Below are positions 3,903 through 61,788 of a DNA stretch of 64,000 nt, one piece after another. Numbering within the stretch: the stretch's first letter is position 1; every line of letters begins with the position of its first letter. Under the pieces are notes generated by a model that saw only the letters and a program-made list of their open reading frames with translations, searched no databases and had not been told where the DNA came from. A program made the translations under genes and the position numbers. The DNA lies in assembly GCF_947077775.1 (NCBI RefSeq), contig NZ_CAMTTE010000001.1, positions 1,364,001 through 1,428,000 of the forward strand. The letters run 5' to 3'. The stretch comes from Salinibacter pepae. GTDB lineage: Bacteria > Bacteroidota > Rhodothermia > Rhodothermales > Salinibacteraceae.

Positions 3903-5369
3903 TCACACAATCTCGTCCGGCCCGTACTTGAGCACCGGCCCACGGTAGCCGAAGACCGTCTGCAGCACCTTTGTGACGGTGGGCGATTGCTTCTGCACGT
4001 ACCACTGATCCGCCACCCGCCGGACGCCCTCGCCGTAGGCCGGGTAGGGGTGGATCGTGTCGCCCAGGTTGCGGAGCGTGACGCCGTTGCGCATGGCAAT
4101 CGTGAACGCCGTGATCAGCTCGCCGGCCCGCTCGCCGAGGACGCTCGCGCCCAGGATGGTGCCGGTGAGGGACTTCGCGTGGACCTTGATCTGGCCGGTC
4201 GTCTCGCTCTCGGTGATGGCGCGGTCGAGCTGGTCGTACGGGAAGCGGTAGGTCTCGTAGGAGACGCCCTGCTCGTCGAGATCGGCGGCGTGCGCCCCCA
4301 CGTGCGCCAGCTCGGGCTCCGTGTAGGTGACCCACGGCACGTGGTCGGCGTCGATTTTCGAGGGCACCTTCAGGAGTGCGTTCGTGACGGCCACCTTCGC
4401 CATGTGGTTGCTCATGTGCGTGAACTGGTAGCGGCCCGTCACGTCGCCCACGGCGTAGACATGACCCTGGCTCGTGCGGCAGCGGTCGTCGACGGTGATG
4501 CCCTGGCGGGTATAGTCGATGCCCGCGGCGTCGAGGTGGAGGCCGTCGACGTGGGCGGTGCGACCGGTGGCGAGAAGCAGCGCGTCGGCCTCCACGGGGC
4601 CGTGTGCTCCCGCCGAAATCGTGATCGTGCTGCCGGACTGCGCCACCTCCTCCACCTGCGCCCCCAACACGTATTCGACGCCCTCCCCCTCCAGCGTCTC
4701 CCGGAGTGTGGCGGCCAGCTCGGCGTCGTCGTTCGAGAGGATGCGGTCGGCCATGTCGAGCACGACGACCTCCGTGCCGAGCCGTGCAAAGGCCTGCGCC
4801 ATCTCGGTCCCGATGGGTCCGCCCCCCACGATCGCAAGCCGCTCCGGTTGTTCTTCAAGCTCGAAGAGCGTCTCGTTGGTGAGAACGTCGACCTCGCCGA
4901 GGCCGTCGATGGGCGGGACGAGCGGGCTCGCCCCCGCCGCCACGATCACGTAGCGCCCCGTCACCTGTTCGGTCGTCCCGTCGTCGCGCTCCACGGCGAC
5001 GGTGTGCGCGTCGATGAAGTGCGCGTCCCCCTGCCGCACGTCGATGTCCAGGTCCTCGAAGATCTCCGGCGCGTCGGCCTCCTCGTACACGTCCTGTCGC
5101 ACCTGGCGGACGTGCTCCATCACGCCCCCAAAGTCGACCTCGACGGACTGGTCGGTGAGGCCGTATTTGCTGGCCGTCTGGGCCTGGTGGACCACCGTCG
5201 CGGCCTTGAGGAGCGTCTTGCTCGGCACGCAGCCGGTCCACGTGCAGTCGCCGCCGAGGGCGTCGCGCTCGATCATGGTGGTCTTGGCGCCGAGGTTGGT
5301 GGCGATGCCGGCCGCGGAGAGGCCGCCGGCCCCGCCGCCAATCACGATGACGTCGTAGTCGGTCGTCAT
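3903..5369 (-). CDS. class I pyridine nucleotide-disulfide oxidoreductase
   Basis: This is a 488-residue FAD/NAD(P)H flavoprotein of the dihydrolipoamide dehydrogenase/mercuric reductase family. The N-terminal dinucleotide fold has VIVIGGGAGGLSAA, followed by the redox-active disulfide in GGDCTWTGCVPSK (CX4C). A second Rossmann motif, AIVGGGPIGTEMAQAFARLG, binds NAD(P)H, and the FAD-closing motif is YAVGDVTG. The usual C-terminal dimerisation domain is present but without the full HAHPT signature; HPYPAYGEGVRR occupies that place. Substrate is unknown: it lacks a lipoyl-complex neighbourhood and the extra N-terminal heavy-metal domain of many mercuric reductases. The start is set at MTTDYDV, seven codons inside the longest frame. 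Confidence 0.85.
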   Translation of the reverse strand: MTTDYDVIVIGGGAGGLSAAGIATNLGAKTTMIERDALGGDCTWTGCVPSKTLLKAATVVHQAQTASKYGLTDQSVEVDFGGVMEHVRQVRQDVYEEADAPEIFEDLDIDVRQGDAHFIDAHTVAVERDDGTTEQVTGRYVIVAAGASPLVPPIDGLGEVDVLTNETLFELEEQPERLAIVGGGPIGTEMAQAFARLGTEVVVLDMADRILSNDDAELAATLRETLEGEGVEYVLGAQVEEVAQSGSTITISAGAHGPVEADALLLATGRTAHVDGLHLDAAGIDYTRQGITVDDRCRTSQGHVYAVGDVTGRYQFTHMSNHMAKVAVTNALLKVPSKIDADHVPWVTYTEPELAHVGAHAADLDEQGVSYETYRFPYDQLDRAITESETTGQIKVHAKSLTGTILGASVLGERAGELITAFTIAMRNGVTLRNLGDTIHPYPAYGEGVRRVADQWYVQKQSPTVTKVLQTVFGYRGPVLKYGPDEIV

Positions 5370-5462
5370 GGAAGGGGGAGGTTGAGGCAAGAGGAGACAG
5401 AAGCTCTACGCGCCCCTGAGTCTGCCAGTTCTTCTCGTCGTTACGAAGCCTCCGGCCCCAAT

Positions 5463-55298: not shown

Positions 55299-55808
55299 TC
55301 ACTCAGACGCCTGATTTCGGAACGCCTCGAAGCCCTGCTCCTCGTACGCCCCGGAGCCAAAGTACCGGAGCATCGTCAGAAACATGGGCCGCTTGATGTA
55401 ACCGGGCTGCTTCGCAATCGGGGTGCCCTCGGGGGTCATGAAGACCGTGGTGGGCACGCCCCGCGCCCCGAGCGCTAGGCCCAGCTCTTTCGACGAGAGC
55501 GTGCGGCCGTCGAACTGATGCGCCCCTGCCGTCGTGTCGCGGTTGAGGCGGGCATAGGTGAACTGACGGTCCAGGGTCGCCCGGACCGTGGAGTCGGCGT
55601 AGACGGTCTCCTGCATCTTCTGGCAGTAGGGGCACCACGGCGCGTAGATCTCCAGCAGAATCGGGGTCTCCTGCGCCTCGGCCTGGGTCACCACCTCCCC
55701 GAGCGAGCGAGGAGGCATCTCCATCTGCGCGTGGGCCGTGCCAACTCCGACCACGAGGGTGAGGACTGCCGAGAGAACGAAGGGTCGGACCAAAGGAAGC
55801 GAGCGCAT
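55299..55808 (-). CDS. exported thioredoxin-family protein
   Basis: This is a 169-residue protein with a signal peptide (LSAVLTLVVGVGTAHAQ). The thioredoxin fold has ILLEIYAPWCPYCQKMQ, with a CPYC redox pair, and the cis-Pro in GARGVPTTVFMTPEG. It resembles DsbD-gamma/SoxW-type periplasmic thioredoxins. It converges with the cyclophilin-fusion gene (43 bp between stops), so both neighbours are extracytoplasmic folding factors. It is the last gene before the AT-rich island. Confidence 0.88.
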   Translation of the reverse strand: MRSLPLVRPFVLSAVLTLVVGVGTAHAQMEMPPRSLGEVVTQAEAQETPILLEIYAPWCPYCQKMQETVYADSTVRATLDRQFTYARLNRDTTAGAHQFDGRTLSSKELGLALGARGVPTTVFMTPEGTPIAKQPGYIKRPMFLTMLRYFGSGAYEEQGFEAFRNQASE

Positions 55809-55948
55809 TCGGACGGGCAGACGAGTAGATGTGAAAGCCTACCTGTCCGATGGAATCGATGACCGAAAGGTTCCTGCTCGAATCAACGCCAGTAGAAGAC
55901 TCCCACTATTTCCACTTGAGGATATTTTCTGGTCTAGATAGCACTTTT

Positions 55949-56611
55949 TCATATCATTTGATGTAATCGAATCGTCTTAACAGTTCCGCTATCTTCGTCT
56001 ATTTCGAACGTGATCTGCGTTCTTGTATCAGTTATCTCAAGCTCCCCGCTTCGCTTCGCTTTCTTGGCTGTACCCTGCTTCGCAATATACACGTATCCGG
56101 ACTTCCGGACCGGCGGACTAAGCTGATTCCCCGCCATGCCGGGGCACAATTCTTTTTCTCCCACTGTGAGCGACCACTCCGAAGACGTAATCTTCATCTC
56201 TCGGAGCCTGAAGTCCGCCTTTCCTGCGGACTTGAAGTACTCCATCTTTAACCCACCGTAGTTCAGATCCACTCGGACGGTGCTCCCATCGGGATAGGGG
56301 ATACGATTGAACGTTTTTGACTCGCCAAACAGACGGATTACTCCGTCAAGAGACGAGACGGCCAGTATGTCTCTGAACGTGGGTTGGGAGCCCGAGGACT
56401 TGCTGGAAATGAGTTCCCCTCCCACAGAGATGTTCTGGAACTCGGCGTGGCTGATGTAGGGCGTCGGGTCGTGCTGCCCCTGGACTGTCTTCTCCGTCTG
56501 CGCCTGAACGGCCCCTGTCTCAGCAAGGCTGATAATAACCATTGCCCAAACAAGTATGAATGGTCTTCTTGCAGCCGAAGAAAAAGTAATATATAAATAT
56601 TTACAATACAT
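55949..56611 (-). CDS. secreted protein of unknown function, island paralog A
   Basis: This is a 220-residue protein with an N-terminal signal-like helix (FILVWAMVIISLAETGAVQA). I do not recognise the family. It shares an order of motifs with the two paralogs nearby: YISHAEFQNIS, FRDILAVSSLDGVIRLFG, LNYGGLKMEYF and SSEWSLTVGEKEL. The pattern (short helix, LG turn, several strands) is reminiscent of BamE/SmpA-like folds, which is only an inference. Base composition is clearly lower in GC than the flanking genes. The ATG at 56611 gives the same length as paralog C. Confidence 0.65.
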   Translation of the reverse strand: MYCKYLYITFSSAARRPFILVWAMVIISLAETGAVQAQTEKTVQGQHDPTPYISHAEFQNISVGGELISSKSSGSQPTFRDILAVSSLDGVIRLFGESKTFNRIPYPDGSTVRVDLNYGGLKMEYFKSAGKADFRLREMKITSSEWSLTVGEKELCPGMAGNQLSPPVRKSGYVYIAKQGTAKKAKRSGELEITDTRTQITFEIDEDSGTVKTIRLHQMI

Positions 56612-56686
56612 TCTGTATTGCTCGTAGCCGCCATCAGGGCAATCAAATAGAAACAAAAAGAGTGGAGGATCCCGCATGCTCGTTCC

Positions 56687-57360
56687 TCAGATCATGCGGT
56701 GGAACGTGATCTCTTTCACCCGACCGTCGACGTCAATCGAAATCCCCAGCCGACGCTCTGATTGAGACCGCTCTGCTTTAGCAGTGTCGGTCGTTTTCGC
56801 GTTTCTAAGGTGGATGACGGCTCTCCCCCCGTCGGTGCTCTTCTCAGCGGATGTCCGTACAGACTCACGAACCGGCGTGCTCAGTTCACTTTCTGGCATC
56901 CCTATATGGACTCGACTACCATTTACTGTGAGTGACCACTCACTACCCGTGATCGTCAGGTCACGTAGCAATATCTTCCCCTTCTTTTCGGCTTTGATAT
57001 ACTCCAGCTTAAGTCCTTCGTAGTGAAAATATGCGATGAATGAGCCTTCTCTCACCAAATTTTTTTCTCGAGAGACTCCGGATTACCAAGGTATTGCGTA
57101 ACTTGATCGAGCGAAGCAGCCGACAACAGATCGGACAGCGTCACCCCTTGGATAGTTGCACTGCTGCTTACCTCATCGGACTTAAGCCTGCCTCGGCTGA
57201 GAGAGGCTTTTTCGAAATCATCAAAGGTTATATACGAAGCCTGAACAACCTCACCCTCATAGGTTCTCTTGAAGACGTTTTCGGCTTGTGCTATCAGCAT
57301 ATCCGGAGAAAAAGAGACTGACAACAGGACTACTACGGAAGTCGCAACAAGGTACTTCAT
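56687..57360 (-). pseudogene. frameshifted secreted protein, island paralog B
   Basis: Two overlapping frames (57360-57052, 102 residues; 57058-56687, 123 residues) together make one paralog of A and C. The first part has a signal peptide (SVVVLLSVSFSPDMLIAQA) and LSDLLSAASLDQVTQYLGNPESLEKK. The second has GSFIAYFHYEGLKLEYI and GSEWSLTVNGSRV. They would join as one 224-residue protein if the run of seven A's (57060-57066, minus strand) were read as eight. This could be a true mutation, phase variation, transcriptional slippage or a sequencing error. Confidence 0.7.
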
Positions 57361-58193
57361 AGTTATATAGAGTCAGCTTCAGGAAACAATATAATCAGGA
57401 GTACTGATCGCAAAAAGAGGGGCACTTTCAGATTTCAAGATTACCTAAAACAGGTGTCCTATTCGAATAAACTCCCTATCTCAGCGGATCAAGTCAGAGA
57501 AGTGGTGGAATACGTTCTGGCGTGAGCCCGACGGAACAGATAGGTGATTACATTTACACTGTGACTATTAGACACTTTCGGGGGATCAGTTGTTCTTAAT
57601 CATGGTACACGACAAAAGCTGGACGAGCCTTCACAAGACGGCTATTCCCGTCCCTCGACCGCGTCATTCCGAGCGTAGCGAGGCGCTGCGGAGCAAGTGC
57701 TCTCGGAGTGAATCTCTTTGAATGAAGCGGAAACGAGTTGGATCGGCTTGCCACTTGAGCACCGCTTTCGCCGCTTCTCGAAGAGATTCTTCGTCGCTGC
57801 GCGACTCAGAATGACTTGTGTCGAAAGATTGAAGTGTCATGTGAGTTTTGTCGTGCACAGAGGTTCTTAATTATGAATTTAATTGTATGTCAACAGTGTC
57901 TTCTATTTTCGCTTAGTGAAGGTCCTTCTCCAAAGGAATTCCCAGGTTACTTTGCCTCATTCCGAGATGAACCGTTTCACCTTCCGTCTTCAGAAAGTGG
58001 TCGGGCGAGGTCACCTCGGCCACCCCCAAATGGGCATCTCTCGATGTTTCAGTGAATTCATTTCCGTCCGGCCCGGCTCAACGGGCTTTCAGAACCGGCG
58101 AACGCTGAACTCCCCCAACCTTTGACTTGTATATAACTAATGTCGTTACTTAATTTATTTTTATATTTGCAATGGATTAGTACTTCCAAATGT
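57361..58193. other. 833-bp non-coding stretch within the island
   Basis: This is the largest gap in the window. It is AT-rich at both ends and holds a MITE-like element (57592-57875). Short frames here lack codon bias or homology-like motifs. The right part (57880-58193) includes a GCCCG/CGGGC hairpin near 58073 and an AT-rich run near 58120-58175, downstream of paralog C. I support no gene here. Confidence 0.5.
57592..57875. repeat. MITE-like element with nested inverted repeats
   Basis: The core, 57664-57815, begins GTCATTCCGAG and ends CTCAGAATGAC (10 of 11 bp inverted). It has inner arms GAATCTCTT and AAGAGATTC and resembles the GTCATTCTGAG-type repeats scattered in Bacteroidota/Chlorobi genomes (from general knowledge). 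It is enclosed by 10-bp perfect inverted repeats CACGACAAAA (57608-57617) and TTTTGTCGTG (57846-57855), then by direct repeats GTTCTTAATCATG (57592-57604) and GTTCTTAATTATG (57863-57875). No transposase is encoded. The 64-residue frame inside it is not credible. Confidence 0.55.
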
Positions 58194-58856
58194 CTAATCT
58201 GATGGAATTCGGCTGAGACGAACAACGTCAATAGCCCCTGCTTTTCCAGTCTTAAAGTTGAACTGCGTCATTCCGTTCATCAGCGGCTCAACTTTCTCAT
58301 TCTTCGAATCATTCGGTTGTTCAATGTAGATTGCCCCGACACCACTCTTGTTATTTTTCTTCGATAGCTTACCAGAAACAGCCGACCGACGGACTGTTTT
58401 GTCAAGATCAGCGATGTCTCCCCCCGGAGACAATCTTTTACTTCCGATTTCCAGCCCCCACCTCGGGGATCGAAGCTCGATTGAGGTTATTCCCAGCGTG
58501 CCGTCCGCAAAGCCATGATACTCCACTGTTGTATCTCTATCATAGTGTAGCCATGCGGTGAAACTCGCATCATCGGGGTCGTCATTACGCTCGACCGACT
58601 GTGGGTCACCAAGCAAACGGATCACCTCGTCTAAAGAAGAAACAGTTAGAAGCTCTCGAAGCGGCACTTGACCATCGGGACGGTGGAGCGTGACCGACTG
58701 AAACTCCTCATAGGTAACGTAGGGCGTCTGGACGATCTGACCATTTGAATCCGTCCGCTGAAAAGTTTTTTCAACTTGTGCACATGCAGTGTCCGACCCC
58801 ATGAAGGTGAATGCTGTGAACATAGCTAATATTGGAAGAAGCCGTTTCGTAACCAT
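58194..58856 (-). CDS. secreted protein of unknown function, island paralog C
   Basis: This is a 220-residue intact member of the island family. The signal peptide is RLLPILAMFTAFTFMGSDTACAQ. Shared blocks are TPYVTYEEFQSVTL, LRELLTVSSLDEVIRLLGDPQSVER, AWLHYDRDTTVEYHGFADG and SPRWGLEIGSKRLSPG. I do not recognise the family. It lies 99 bp downstream of the split M23 gene and is separated from paralog B by the repeat element. GC content is low compared with the rest of the window. Confidence 0.75.
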   Translation of the reverse strand: MVTKRLLPILAMFTAFTFMGSDTACAQVEKTFQRTDSNGQIVQTPYVTYEEFQSVTLHRPDGQVPLRELLTVSSLDEVIRLLGDPQSVERNDDPDDASFTAWLHYDRDTTVEYHGFADGTLGITSIELRSPRWGLEIGSKRLSPGGDIADLDKTVRRSAVSGKLSKKNNKSGVGAIYIEQPNDSKNEKVEPLMNGMTQFNFKTGKAGAIDVVRLSRIPSD

Positions 58857-58955
58857 CGTACCATCTTTGCAGTTTTTCCCTGATAGTTCAATCGTCTTTT
58901 CTGTGCGTCTCCGTGCTTGATCGCACCCATCAGAGGTCGGGATTTCGTCTGAATA

Positions 58956-60408
58956 CTAACTACATTGATCGGACTTTGCTTCCCCCTCCTCGTTGAAGTT
59001 GGTCCCGATATACTCTTCAGGATCTACAGTTTCTCCCCCAAGATCCTTGACCCACCCAAGATCTGTTCCATCCCCTTCACGCACCTCAAGGTGGAGGTGC
59101 TCCTGGTTACATTCTGCCTCCTCTGCGTTCCCACTCTTACCAGTTTCTCCAAGCTTACGTCCTTGAACAACAGCGTCATCTTCTCCGACTGCAGTTGAAC
59201 TGAGGTGAGCGTACAGAAAGTATTGATTTTCGTTTTGAGAAGACTGAACGACAACATAATCGCCGAAGTCATCTAAGTAATCCACCTGTACAACCTCACC
59301 TCTCTCTATAGCGAACAACTCAGTACCCTTGTCTGCATCAAGATCGAGTCCTCCGTGGAACTGATTGTTATTCGGCCCCCTCGTGTCACCGTAGGTTCCC
59401 CCTTCAATTCCGGCACATGTCGCCCGAATGTCCATATCCTTAAGTGGATCCTGGGGACACACTTCAGTCTCATCCACGTCGTCGTCGGGCGGTTCCGCCG
59501 GCGGGCACTCCGATCCTGGCCCTGACGAACCTGGATATAGCCGCTTCGAAAGGCTTTTCGTAGATTCGCAACTCCTGTTCTCGTCTCCGTCAGCCCCCCC
59601 CACTTCCTCCACCGCCAACCCCATCTCCTCCGTCGGGATAACCTCCACCAAGTCCACCTGCACCACCTCCAGGAATCGACGAACCGCATGATACTTCGTA
59701 TTCAGTTCCACACGACTCATTCCACGACCATCCAGCACAGGTAGTCACCTGCTCGATAGTGCAGACCTGGTTTTTAGAAGCGGGTTTTTCGGGGGATCCT
59801 ACTGCATTCAATACGGCCTCCTCTTCTCCAGCCCGGATCAATTGCTCGTTGGCTATGTCCTCAGCTCCTGACGTGGCTGGAATCACACAGTTCGCGTAAC
59901 GGACGCCCGTTTCTTCTCGTTGCGCTGCAGCCTCCGCCGGATCGCTTTTCGCTGCGGACACCGAAGCTTCGATCAGAGCCGCTTCGAGCGAAAAGACAAT
60001 GCGCTTTTTCTCTTCACCCGCCTCTTTTACCATGTCTCGCGGGAAGTACAGGTACACGCTCCGGAACGCCACTGCCTCGGAGTAGGGCCGGCTCGCCAGG
60101 TAGCACCCGTACGGCGACGGGGTGCCGGCTTTTTTCGCCGTCTCCTTGCTCCGCGGCAAGCGCGGCTGTGCCTGCGTGGTTGGCTCCTGATCCGGGCGCA
60201 CCATTCCTCGCTCCAGGGGCACCTCGTCCGGCGATGGCAGGGTGTTCCCCATCGGCATGTGGGAGAACGTGAGGGCCTTTGCCTCCAACCTCTCCGATTC
60301 AGGCGATGACGATCCCGTGAGCTGGTCACAGGCCCCTGCGAACAGGCCCACAAGCAGGAAAGCTACACCCACGAGGACTGAGTTTGACAGGCGTAATCGT
60401 GGACTCAT
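58956..60408 (-). pseudogene. lipoprotein / M23 peptidase gene split by a G8 tract
   Basis: The 5' frame (60408-59590, 272 residues) begins with a lipoprotein signal (GLFAGACDQL, Cys27) and ends in a Gly-rich run. The 3' frame (reading to 58956) continues with GGADGDENRSCES and an M23/LytM endopeptidase domain: FHGGLDLD, YFLYAHLSSTAV and EHLHLEVREG supply the zinc ligands. They join into a single protein of about 483 residues if the eight G's (59594-59601, minus strand) are read as seven. An intact gene would be a surface-anchored cell-wall hydrolase. Decay, phase variation or sequence error are all possible. Confidence 0.75.
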
Positions 60409-60621
60409 AATGTGAATGGCGGCACGCTGTACGCTGAACTGTCATTTCCAAACGGAGAGTAGCAAAAAAACGATGGTGTCAAATATTCGAGTAGTCGCAA
60501 ATTTGAAGTGGGGTGAGCCCTCGGGTCGACACCCACTATCCGACCGCCCCGGAACCCACCACGCCCCCATCACGTCCCGCGAATCCGCAACGACCTGTCG
60601 CGCACTGCCCCTCGTCGCCCC

Positions 60622-61788
60622 GTGACGATTTCCGACCTTCCCACCCCGGCCCTTCTGATCGAACAGTCGCGCCTGCAGGCCAACCTCGCGACCATGCAGG
60701 CCCGGGCCGACGCGAACGACGTGGCCCTGCGCCCCCACACGAAGACCCACAAATCGGTCGCCCTCGCGAACGAGCAGAGGAACCGCGGCGCCGAAGGGCT
60801 GACCGTCGCCACCGTGCACGAGGCCGAGACGTTCGTGAACGCCGGATTTGAGGACATGCGCGTGGCCTATCCGGTCACCGGCCGCAACAAGCATGAGCGA
60901 CTGCAGGCGCTTCGGGCCGATTCCAAAATCTCATTCACCGTCGACACCGTGGCGGGCGCCGACCAGGCGTCGGCGGTCTACGCCGAGGCGGACATCCCGG
61001 TGGACGTGCTCATCGAGGTGGACGTGGGCCACGGGCGCTGCGGCGTGCACTGGGCGGACGACGCGGCGGCGGTCACGCTGGCCCGTCGCATCGCCTCCCT
61101 GCCGGGCCTGCACCTCGCAGGGATCCTGACCCACGCCGGGCAGGCCTACGACGGGCCGTCCGACGGCGAGACCGAGACCGACGCGCTCCGTCGCGCCTCG
61201 CGGCAGGAGCGCGACCGGATGCTGTCGGTGGCATCCGCTCTCGCCGAGACCGATGGCGTAAACGTGACGCCGGACAACTTTGAGATCAGCGTCGGCTCCA
61301 CGCCGTCGATGGCCGCCTTCACGAACGCAACGCGCGACGGCTTCCGCGTCACCGAGATCCGCCCCGGCAACTACGTGATGCACGACGCGATGCAGGTGGC
61401 CCTCGGCGCCGCGACGCTCGGCGACTGCGCCCTCACGGTGCGTACGACCGTCGTCAGCACGCAGCAAAAACCCGACGGCACCGCCCACGCGTTCGTGGAC
61501 GCGGGCAAGAAGGTGTTCACCACGGACACCGGCTACGGCACGGAGGGGCACGGCATCGCCCTGGCCGATGCCGCGCAGATGCGCCCTCACCCGAACCTCC
61601 ACGTCGATCATCTCTCGGAGGAGCACGGGTGGCTCACGATGACCGGTGATGCGGACCTGACGGTGGGCGACCGGCTCCGCATCGTGCCCAACCACGCCTG
61701 CGTCACCGTGGCCACCCAAGACACCCTCCACGTCGTCGACGGCCCCTCCGTCGTCGACAGGTGGTCGGTCGACGCCCGAGGGGGGTAA
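60622..61788 (+). CDS. D-threonine aldolase / D-serine dehydratase-like PLP enzyme
   Basis: This is a 388-residue fold-type III PLP enzyme. The alanine-racemase-like N-terminal barrel begins LPTPALLIEQSRLQANLATM, with the PLP-binding Lys in RPHTKTHKS and the PLP-phosphate region in PDNFEISVGSTPSM. The C-terminal domain has IRPGNYVMHDAMQ and EEHGWLTM followed by VPNHACVTV, the His/Cys metal site of D-threonine aldolase and eukaryotic-type D-serine dehydratase. The start codon is GTG. It would act on D-threonine or D-serine. It is the first normal-GC gene after the island. Confidence 0.88.
   Translation: MTISDLPTPALLIEQSRLQANLATMQARADANDVALRPHTKTHKSVALANEQRNRGAEGLTVATVHEAETFVNAGFEDMRVAYPVTGRNKHERLQALRADSKISFTVDTVAGADQASAVYAEADIPVDVLIEVDVGHGRCGVHWADDAAAVTLARRIASLPGLHLAGILTHAGQAYDGPSDGETETDALRRASRQERDRMLSVASALAETDGVNVTPDNFEISVGSTPSMAAFTNATRDGFRVTEIRPGNYVMHDAMQVALGAATLGDCALTVRTTVVSTQQKPDGTAHAFVDAGKKVFTTDTGYGTEGHGIALADAAQMRPHPNLHVDHLSEEHGWLTMTGDADLTVGDRLRIVPNHACVTVATQDTLHVVDGPSVVDRWSVDARGG

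Follow-up and report, generated by a model that had tools for sequence, protein, structure and literature searches.

A split lipoprotein-M23 peptidase gene in Salinibacter pepae lies in a putative polymorphic toxin-immunity island

RESULTS

A lipoprotein-peptidase gene broken at a run of eight G's

The DNA analyzed here, referred to throughout as the window, is a stretch of 64,000 nucleotides (64 kb) from Salinibacter pepae. Near its right end, two open reading frames (ORFs) overlap on the minus strand in different frames. The ORF at 59590-60408 encodes a lipoprotein of 272 amino acids with the signal ...LLVGLFAGAC, and the ORF at 58956-59738 encodes 260 amino acids that match Pfam Peptidase_M23 with an E value of 1.2e-18. 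A first-pass annotation of this DNA had proposed that the lipoprotein and peptidase halves of one gene are out of frame with one another, that the break falls exactly at eight G's, and that the function is related to the cell envelope, and all three proposals were supported. The lipoprotein ORF ends in ...GGGGSGGG* at the G8 run, which is C8 on the plus strand, and a TGA stop lies right behind the run. At the same site, an intact homolog designated G010-1 reads GGA GGA AGT GGC GGT GTG GAT (GGSGGVD), and the window allele reads GGA GGA AGT, then G8, then CTGAC. The break was placed in the tract itself because the homology to G010-1 switches frame across it. The M23 catalytic motifs, HxxxD and HxH, are intact despite their out-of-frame position, and by sequence the domain matches DipM, EnvC, LytM, and zoocin A. 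The lipoprotein module showed no match in Pfam and none above the cutoff in NCBIfam, and its lipobox, AGAC, is weaker than the LGAC, LAAC, and LLSC of its homologs. The features of the locus are as follows.

55299..55808, minus strand: left flank, thioredoxin-fold gene, conserved across the genus
55875..60550, no strand: low-G+C island, 51% versus 67% for the 64-kb window, between GGTTCC (55869-55874) and GGAACC (60551-60556)
55949..56677, minus strand: putative immunity paralog 3, whose start is probably internal, ahead of '...AQTEKTVQG'
56687..57360, minus strand: putative immunity paralog 2, split by a frameshift in a run of seven A's (A7; on the plus strand T7, 57060-57066)
58194..58856, minus strand: secreted protein of ~220 amino acids, proposed cognate periplasmic immunity protein 1 (ORF; partner-family matches)
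58956..59593, minus strand: C-terminal toxin region (putative), out of frame (the ORF itself is 58956-59738)
59073..59360, minus strand: M23 peptidase domain, its HxxxD (HGGLD) and HxH (HLH) motifs intact (Pfam E value of 1.2e-18; sequence relatives)
59594..59601, minus strand: G8 run within the Gly-rich linker; the frame breaks exactly here (homolog comparison)
59602..60408, minus strand: N-terminal lipoprotein module, with signal peptide, Cys27, conserved 'SPYGCYLASRPY...GVRYANCVIP', and the beginning of the Gly-rich linker (family profile matches; ORF stop at 59590)
60622..61788, plus strand: right flank, alanine-racemase-N/D-Ser-dehydratase-like gene, conserved in the genus

A low-G+C island at a variable site

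The split gene lies in an island of 4.7 kb (about 55875-60550) with a G+C content of 51.0%, against 64.5 to 71.5% in 4.6-kb sliding windows across the rest of the 64 kb. The island is bordered by the thioredoxin-fold gene on one side and the D-Ser-dehydratase-like gene on the other. Four congeners (G003, G004, G005, and G011) have an empty site, with the two flanking genes 140 to 163 bp apart, and in a fifth (G006) a version of the gene with a GH19 domain occupies the same position. The second copy in G010 adjoins the same thioredoxin gene, and an allele with another C-terminal type (G008:C101) adjoins the dehydratase gene. Where the site is empty, as in G011, the GGTTCC and GGAACC that flank the island come together as a single short inverted repeat, a possible insertion target. 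The D-Ser-dehydratase-like gene of G010 (C4:3448010-3449164) has an in-frame TAA and no longer adjoins the toxin site.

One N-terminal module with many C-termini

A profile search with the N-terminal module (N-module) found it in 9 of the 27 genomes of the family, and in 24 of 244 genomes, from 13 genera, of the class Rhodothermia. Across alleles the module is joined to unrelated C-termini, as is typical of polymorphic toxins. The M23 C-terminus is present in the window allele, in both copies of G010, in G008:C245, and in G021:C19. A GH19 endolysin-like C-terminus occurs in G006, G007, and G065, and that of G006 matched a solved endolysin structure (4ok7) with an E value of 4e-15. Many alleles end in a JAB-like domain with HTHP, three (G021:C83, G015, and G021:C2) are nuclease-like, and the remaining kinds include 'FALLDIPCDQIP' and HExxH types; the labels JAB-like, nuclease-like, and HExxH denote motifs read by eye, for which there were no convincing Pfam matches.

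The N-modules of the window allele and G006 are 52% identical, with M23 versus GH19 at the C-terminus. Those of G021:C19 and G014 are 97% identical and carry M23 versus JAB-like domains, and the two G010 copies share 98% identity in the N-module and 57% in the M23 domain. Near-identical N-modules with different or diverged C-termini thus indicate domain exchange at the linker. A Foldseek comparison of the AlphaFold model of the N-module (mean pLDDT of 54) against the PDB yielded no significant match, and a literature search for polymorphic toxins in Salinibacter turned up one incidental paper. By its sequence relationships, the split gene is one member of a hitherto unnamed allelic family in halophilic, Salinibacter-like bacteria, made up of modular, putatively antibacterial lipoprotein toxins, each with its own candidate protective gene.

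Downstream genes that track the C-terminal type

Behind each allele lies a small gene, whose product in most cases has a signal peptide. Among 26 toxin/downstream pairs, the family of the downstream gene follows the C-terminal type, with matches in 32/53 comparisons within a type and 0/272 between types, where types were set from the C-terminal domains and the downstream genes were compared independently of that assignment. The family of M23 partners was found in 5 of the 27 family genomes, including all four that have an M23 allele (Fisher P value of 2.8e-4). The fifth, Longimonas halophila (G014), has an array of such genes without an M23 toxin. That array (G014:C5:1-8000, L129) mixes M23-type immunity genes with other small secreted proteins, and no M23 toxin was found there; its first gene is 78% identical to the G021:C19 partner, and the whole constitutes an orphan immunity island. 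The partners of the peptidoglycan-hydrolase types carry signal peptides, and the partner of the nuclease-like G021:C83 has no detected signal peptide and gave a weak DUF1877-like match. The window holds three partner paralogs, the second of them broken. Foldseek of the AlphaFold model of paralog 1 (pLDDT of 76) against the PDB gave no significant match.

Cassettes of a C-terminal domain and its partner also occur without an N-module, in G015 and G020. In G015 (L048) and G020:C72 (L052) they stand in tandem behind a full-length toxin gene and begin in linker sequence resembling that of the full-length gene. In G010:C4 (L057, reverse complement 4372-5398), an orphan M23 fragment of 86 amino acids is followed by another immunity paralog; it lies downstream of the broken copy 2 and is likely a displaced toxin cassette. 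Toxin cassettes and immunity arrays that stand as orphans within variable islands are a further trait of polymorphic toxin loci, and the C-terminal-type-specific partners and orphan cassettes therefore point to a polymorphic toxin-immunity architecture. The first-pass annotation overlooked this modular toxin nature of the split gene, as well as the immunity paralogs downstream of it.

Broken alleles and the behavior of other G8 runs

The frame is broken in at least 6 of about 26 alleles, by differing lesions. The window allele is broken at G8, G010-2 at G6, and G020:C108 at C6. The lesion of G006 is near GTGTGTC, where a two-base deletion is equally possible, and G021:C2 and G122 have in-frame stops, a TGA and a TAA, respectively, the latter inside the GH19 domain. 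A JAB-like toxin ORF in G014 (L063/L025) stops within the expected HTHP motif (...IATIHMPIQS*) near a contig end and is probably a further broken allele. The longest G runs in the linkers of 14 homologs are 5 to 6 nucleotides, and the closest intact homolog codes the same residues as GGC GGT, without a G8 tract. Neither the genome contigs nor the viral contigs contained a same-species genome or a viral copy bearing the tract, and a later alignment-based scan of the genome contigs returned only four relatives, all more distant. The varied lesions most likely represent inactivation of a dispensable and self-dangerous gene with immunity kept, and the frameshifted mafB genes of Neisseria lactamica are a published parallel (PMC4287609).

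Runs of eight G's are ordinary in this genome, with 229 overlapping matches in 3.63 Mb. No broken gene was found at 36 sampled tracts of eight or more G's elsewhere in the genome or at two others in the window, a survey that is a sample of the genome and includes several tracts with weakly scoring flanks. Where the flanks were clearly coding on both sides, 12/12 tracts keep the frame, two of these being G7 runs in the window. One strong-looking candidate for a second broken G8 gene (L093) was rejected because its tract is intergenic, the other two G8 runs in the window were rejected as gene breaks since they are located at gene edges, and a genome-wide break signature at G8 was rejected given that no broken gene was found at any of the 38 other tracts. 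A codon-model scan of the 64 kb, which called 52 kb coding and could not score the island itself on account of its atypical codon usage, detected no other frame break; the sole frame change that it listed looks like a start/stop overlap. Because no break was found at the other G8 runs sampled or in the coding sequence scored in the window, the frame break is specific to this locus and not a signature of the assembly. With the A7 lesion of immunity paralog 2, the island has two homopolymer frame breaks, and none was detected in the rest of the window.

DISCUSSION

Possible meanings of the frame break

The first-pass annotation took the G8 run for a site of phase variation. In such a scheme, the run in the linker would switch reversibly by slipped-strand mispairing, and the population would contain toxin-on and toxin-off cells. 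Known phase-variable G tracts span lengths that include eight, the M23 catalytic motif is intact though out of frame, and three of the lesions (G8 in the window, G6 in G010-2, and C6 in G020:C108) are in G or C runs between the delivery module and the toxin. However, the tract is in no other family member examined, other alleles are broken at nonrepeats or by in-frame stops, and the second lesion of the locus, at A7, strikes an immunity paralog. Because the homologs lack the tract, the lesions differ, and no broken gene was found at the 38 other G8 or longer tracts, dedicated phase variation is not supported and we consider it unlikely; reversion by slippage at G8 may occur. A ribosomal shift at the run, programmed to yield a minor fraction of full-length toxin, would agree with the stop immediately after the G's and with the same direction of shift being needed in four alleles. 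Those four share no slippery motif or position, the lesion of G006 could equally be a two-base deletion, and most alleles are simply intact, all of which makes recoding extremely improbable.

Two homopolymer indels inside 4.7 kb might also suggest an error of sequencing or assembly, with the gene intact in the cell. Against this stand the 38 other tracts at which no broken gene was found, the absence of indels from the roughly 52 kb called coding in the window, a genome completeness of 99.97%, and the relatives, from other assemblies, in which alleles of this family carry breaks at other places. We regard such an error as quite improbable, and a systematic one as unlikely. That the gene is broken, and that M23 domains were present in every genome searched, would likewise fit an ordinary housekeeping M23 cell wall lipoprotein that turned into a pseudogene and had no role in competition. 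Such a history is very unlikely in view of the accessory low-G+C island, the swapped C-termini, the paired downstream genes, and the orphan immunity arrays.

The reading that we favor, and consider probable, is that the locus is a polymorphic toxin-immunity island in which the M23 toxin allele was inactivated, most likely recently, with immunity retained. The N-module would be exported and lipid anchored and would serve for delivery or anchoring, and a Gly/Asp-rich linker connects it to a predicted M23 peptidoglycan endopeptidase toxin. The toxin would pass to neighboring cells, where the C-terminal domain would attack the cell wall, and the secreted downstream proteins would shield the producer's own periplasm. 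Modules are swapped by recombination in the linker. A single frameshift at the G8 run parts the putative delivery module from the putative toxin and leaves the lipoprotein half as the only one that can be produced in anchored form. As in other alleles, the toxin was most likely inactivated recently while immunity was kept, the recency being our inference. Antibacterial activity, immunity, and cell-to-cell delivery are likewise what the architecture suggests. Some observations weigh against this reading: M23 lipoproteins can also be housekeeping cell wall enzymes, the AGAC lipobox is weaker than that of the homologs, the folds of the N-module and the immunity protein had no significant structural match, and the lipoprotein signal peptide is the only secretion signal that was identified. 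C-terminal signals of the T9SS type were found at 16 other places in the genome and not at the toxin locus.

With this interpretation, what seemed a one-off frameshift becomes a competition system that can be tested, in a halophile lineage that serves as a model. The interpretation brings to light a putative delivery module that lacks annotation, a number of putative toxin types with their candidate immunity proteins, and a site on the chromosome at which close relatives gain, exchange, and lose toxin alleles. The broken allele beside intact immunity genes would be a natural case of a weapon dropped and a shield kept. On a broader scale, we see an even chance that Salinibacter, Longimonas, and their relatives share a class-wide, undescribed Rhodothermia family of lipoprotein-anchored toxins that kill neighbors via peptidoglycan hydrolases and nucleases, by some means other than outer membrane exchange, and that mutations often uncouple the toxin output from the delivery module and leave immunity intact. 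If the toxins are transferred, this would be a lipoprotein-borne weapon outside the myxobacteria, and the lineage that bears it has already been studied for its variable genomic islands.

Comparison with known systems

The M23 domain resembles the endopeptidases LytM, zoocin A, and DipM in having HxxxD and HxH intact, but here it is an interchangeable C-terminal cassette of a lipoprotein. Polymorphic toxin systems at large (Zhang et al. 2012, PMC3482391), including the APD1 and APD2 lipobox prodomains of Amoebophilus, appear similar in their conserved N-terminus, variable C-terminus, immunity genes, and orphan cassettes, whereas the Salinibacter N-module is outside all Pfam and NCBIfam families, and the APD toxins are predicted to act on a eukaryotic host. 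Salinibacter is not named in the sections of that survey consulted here. The MafB/MafI islands of Neisseria (PMC4287609) likewise comprise a toxin, an immunity gene, and alternative cassettes, with mafB frameshifted in N. lactamica, but MafB, likened here by description, is secreted as a toxin and is not described as lipid anchored in the manner of a lipoprotein. The architecture is most like that of the SitA lipoproteins of Myxococcus, toxins of the SitA/SitI system that are delivered by outer membrane exchange (PMC5562445, PMC8546572). By description, both would have a lipoprotein signal, a conserved N-terminal 'escort' module, a variable C-terminal toxin, a downstream immunity gene, and modular swapping. 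We do not claim SitA membership. SitA is reported to have no significant homologs outside the Myxococcales (PMC5562445), and its orthologs are reported only from Myxococcales with TraAB. A SitB-like upstream partner was not noted at the Salinibacter locus, and SitA toxins are described as nucleases acting in the cytoplasm, whereas two of the types described here would be peptidoglycan hydrolases with secreted partners.
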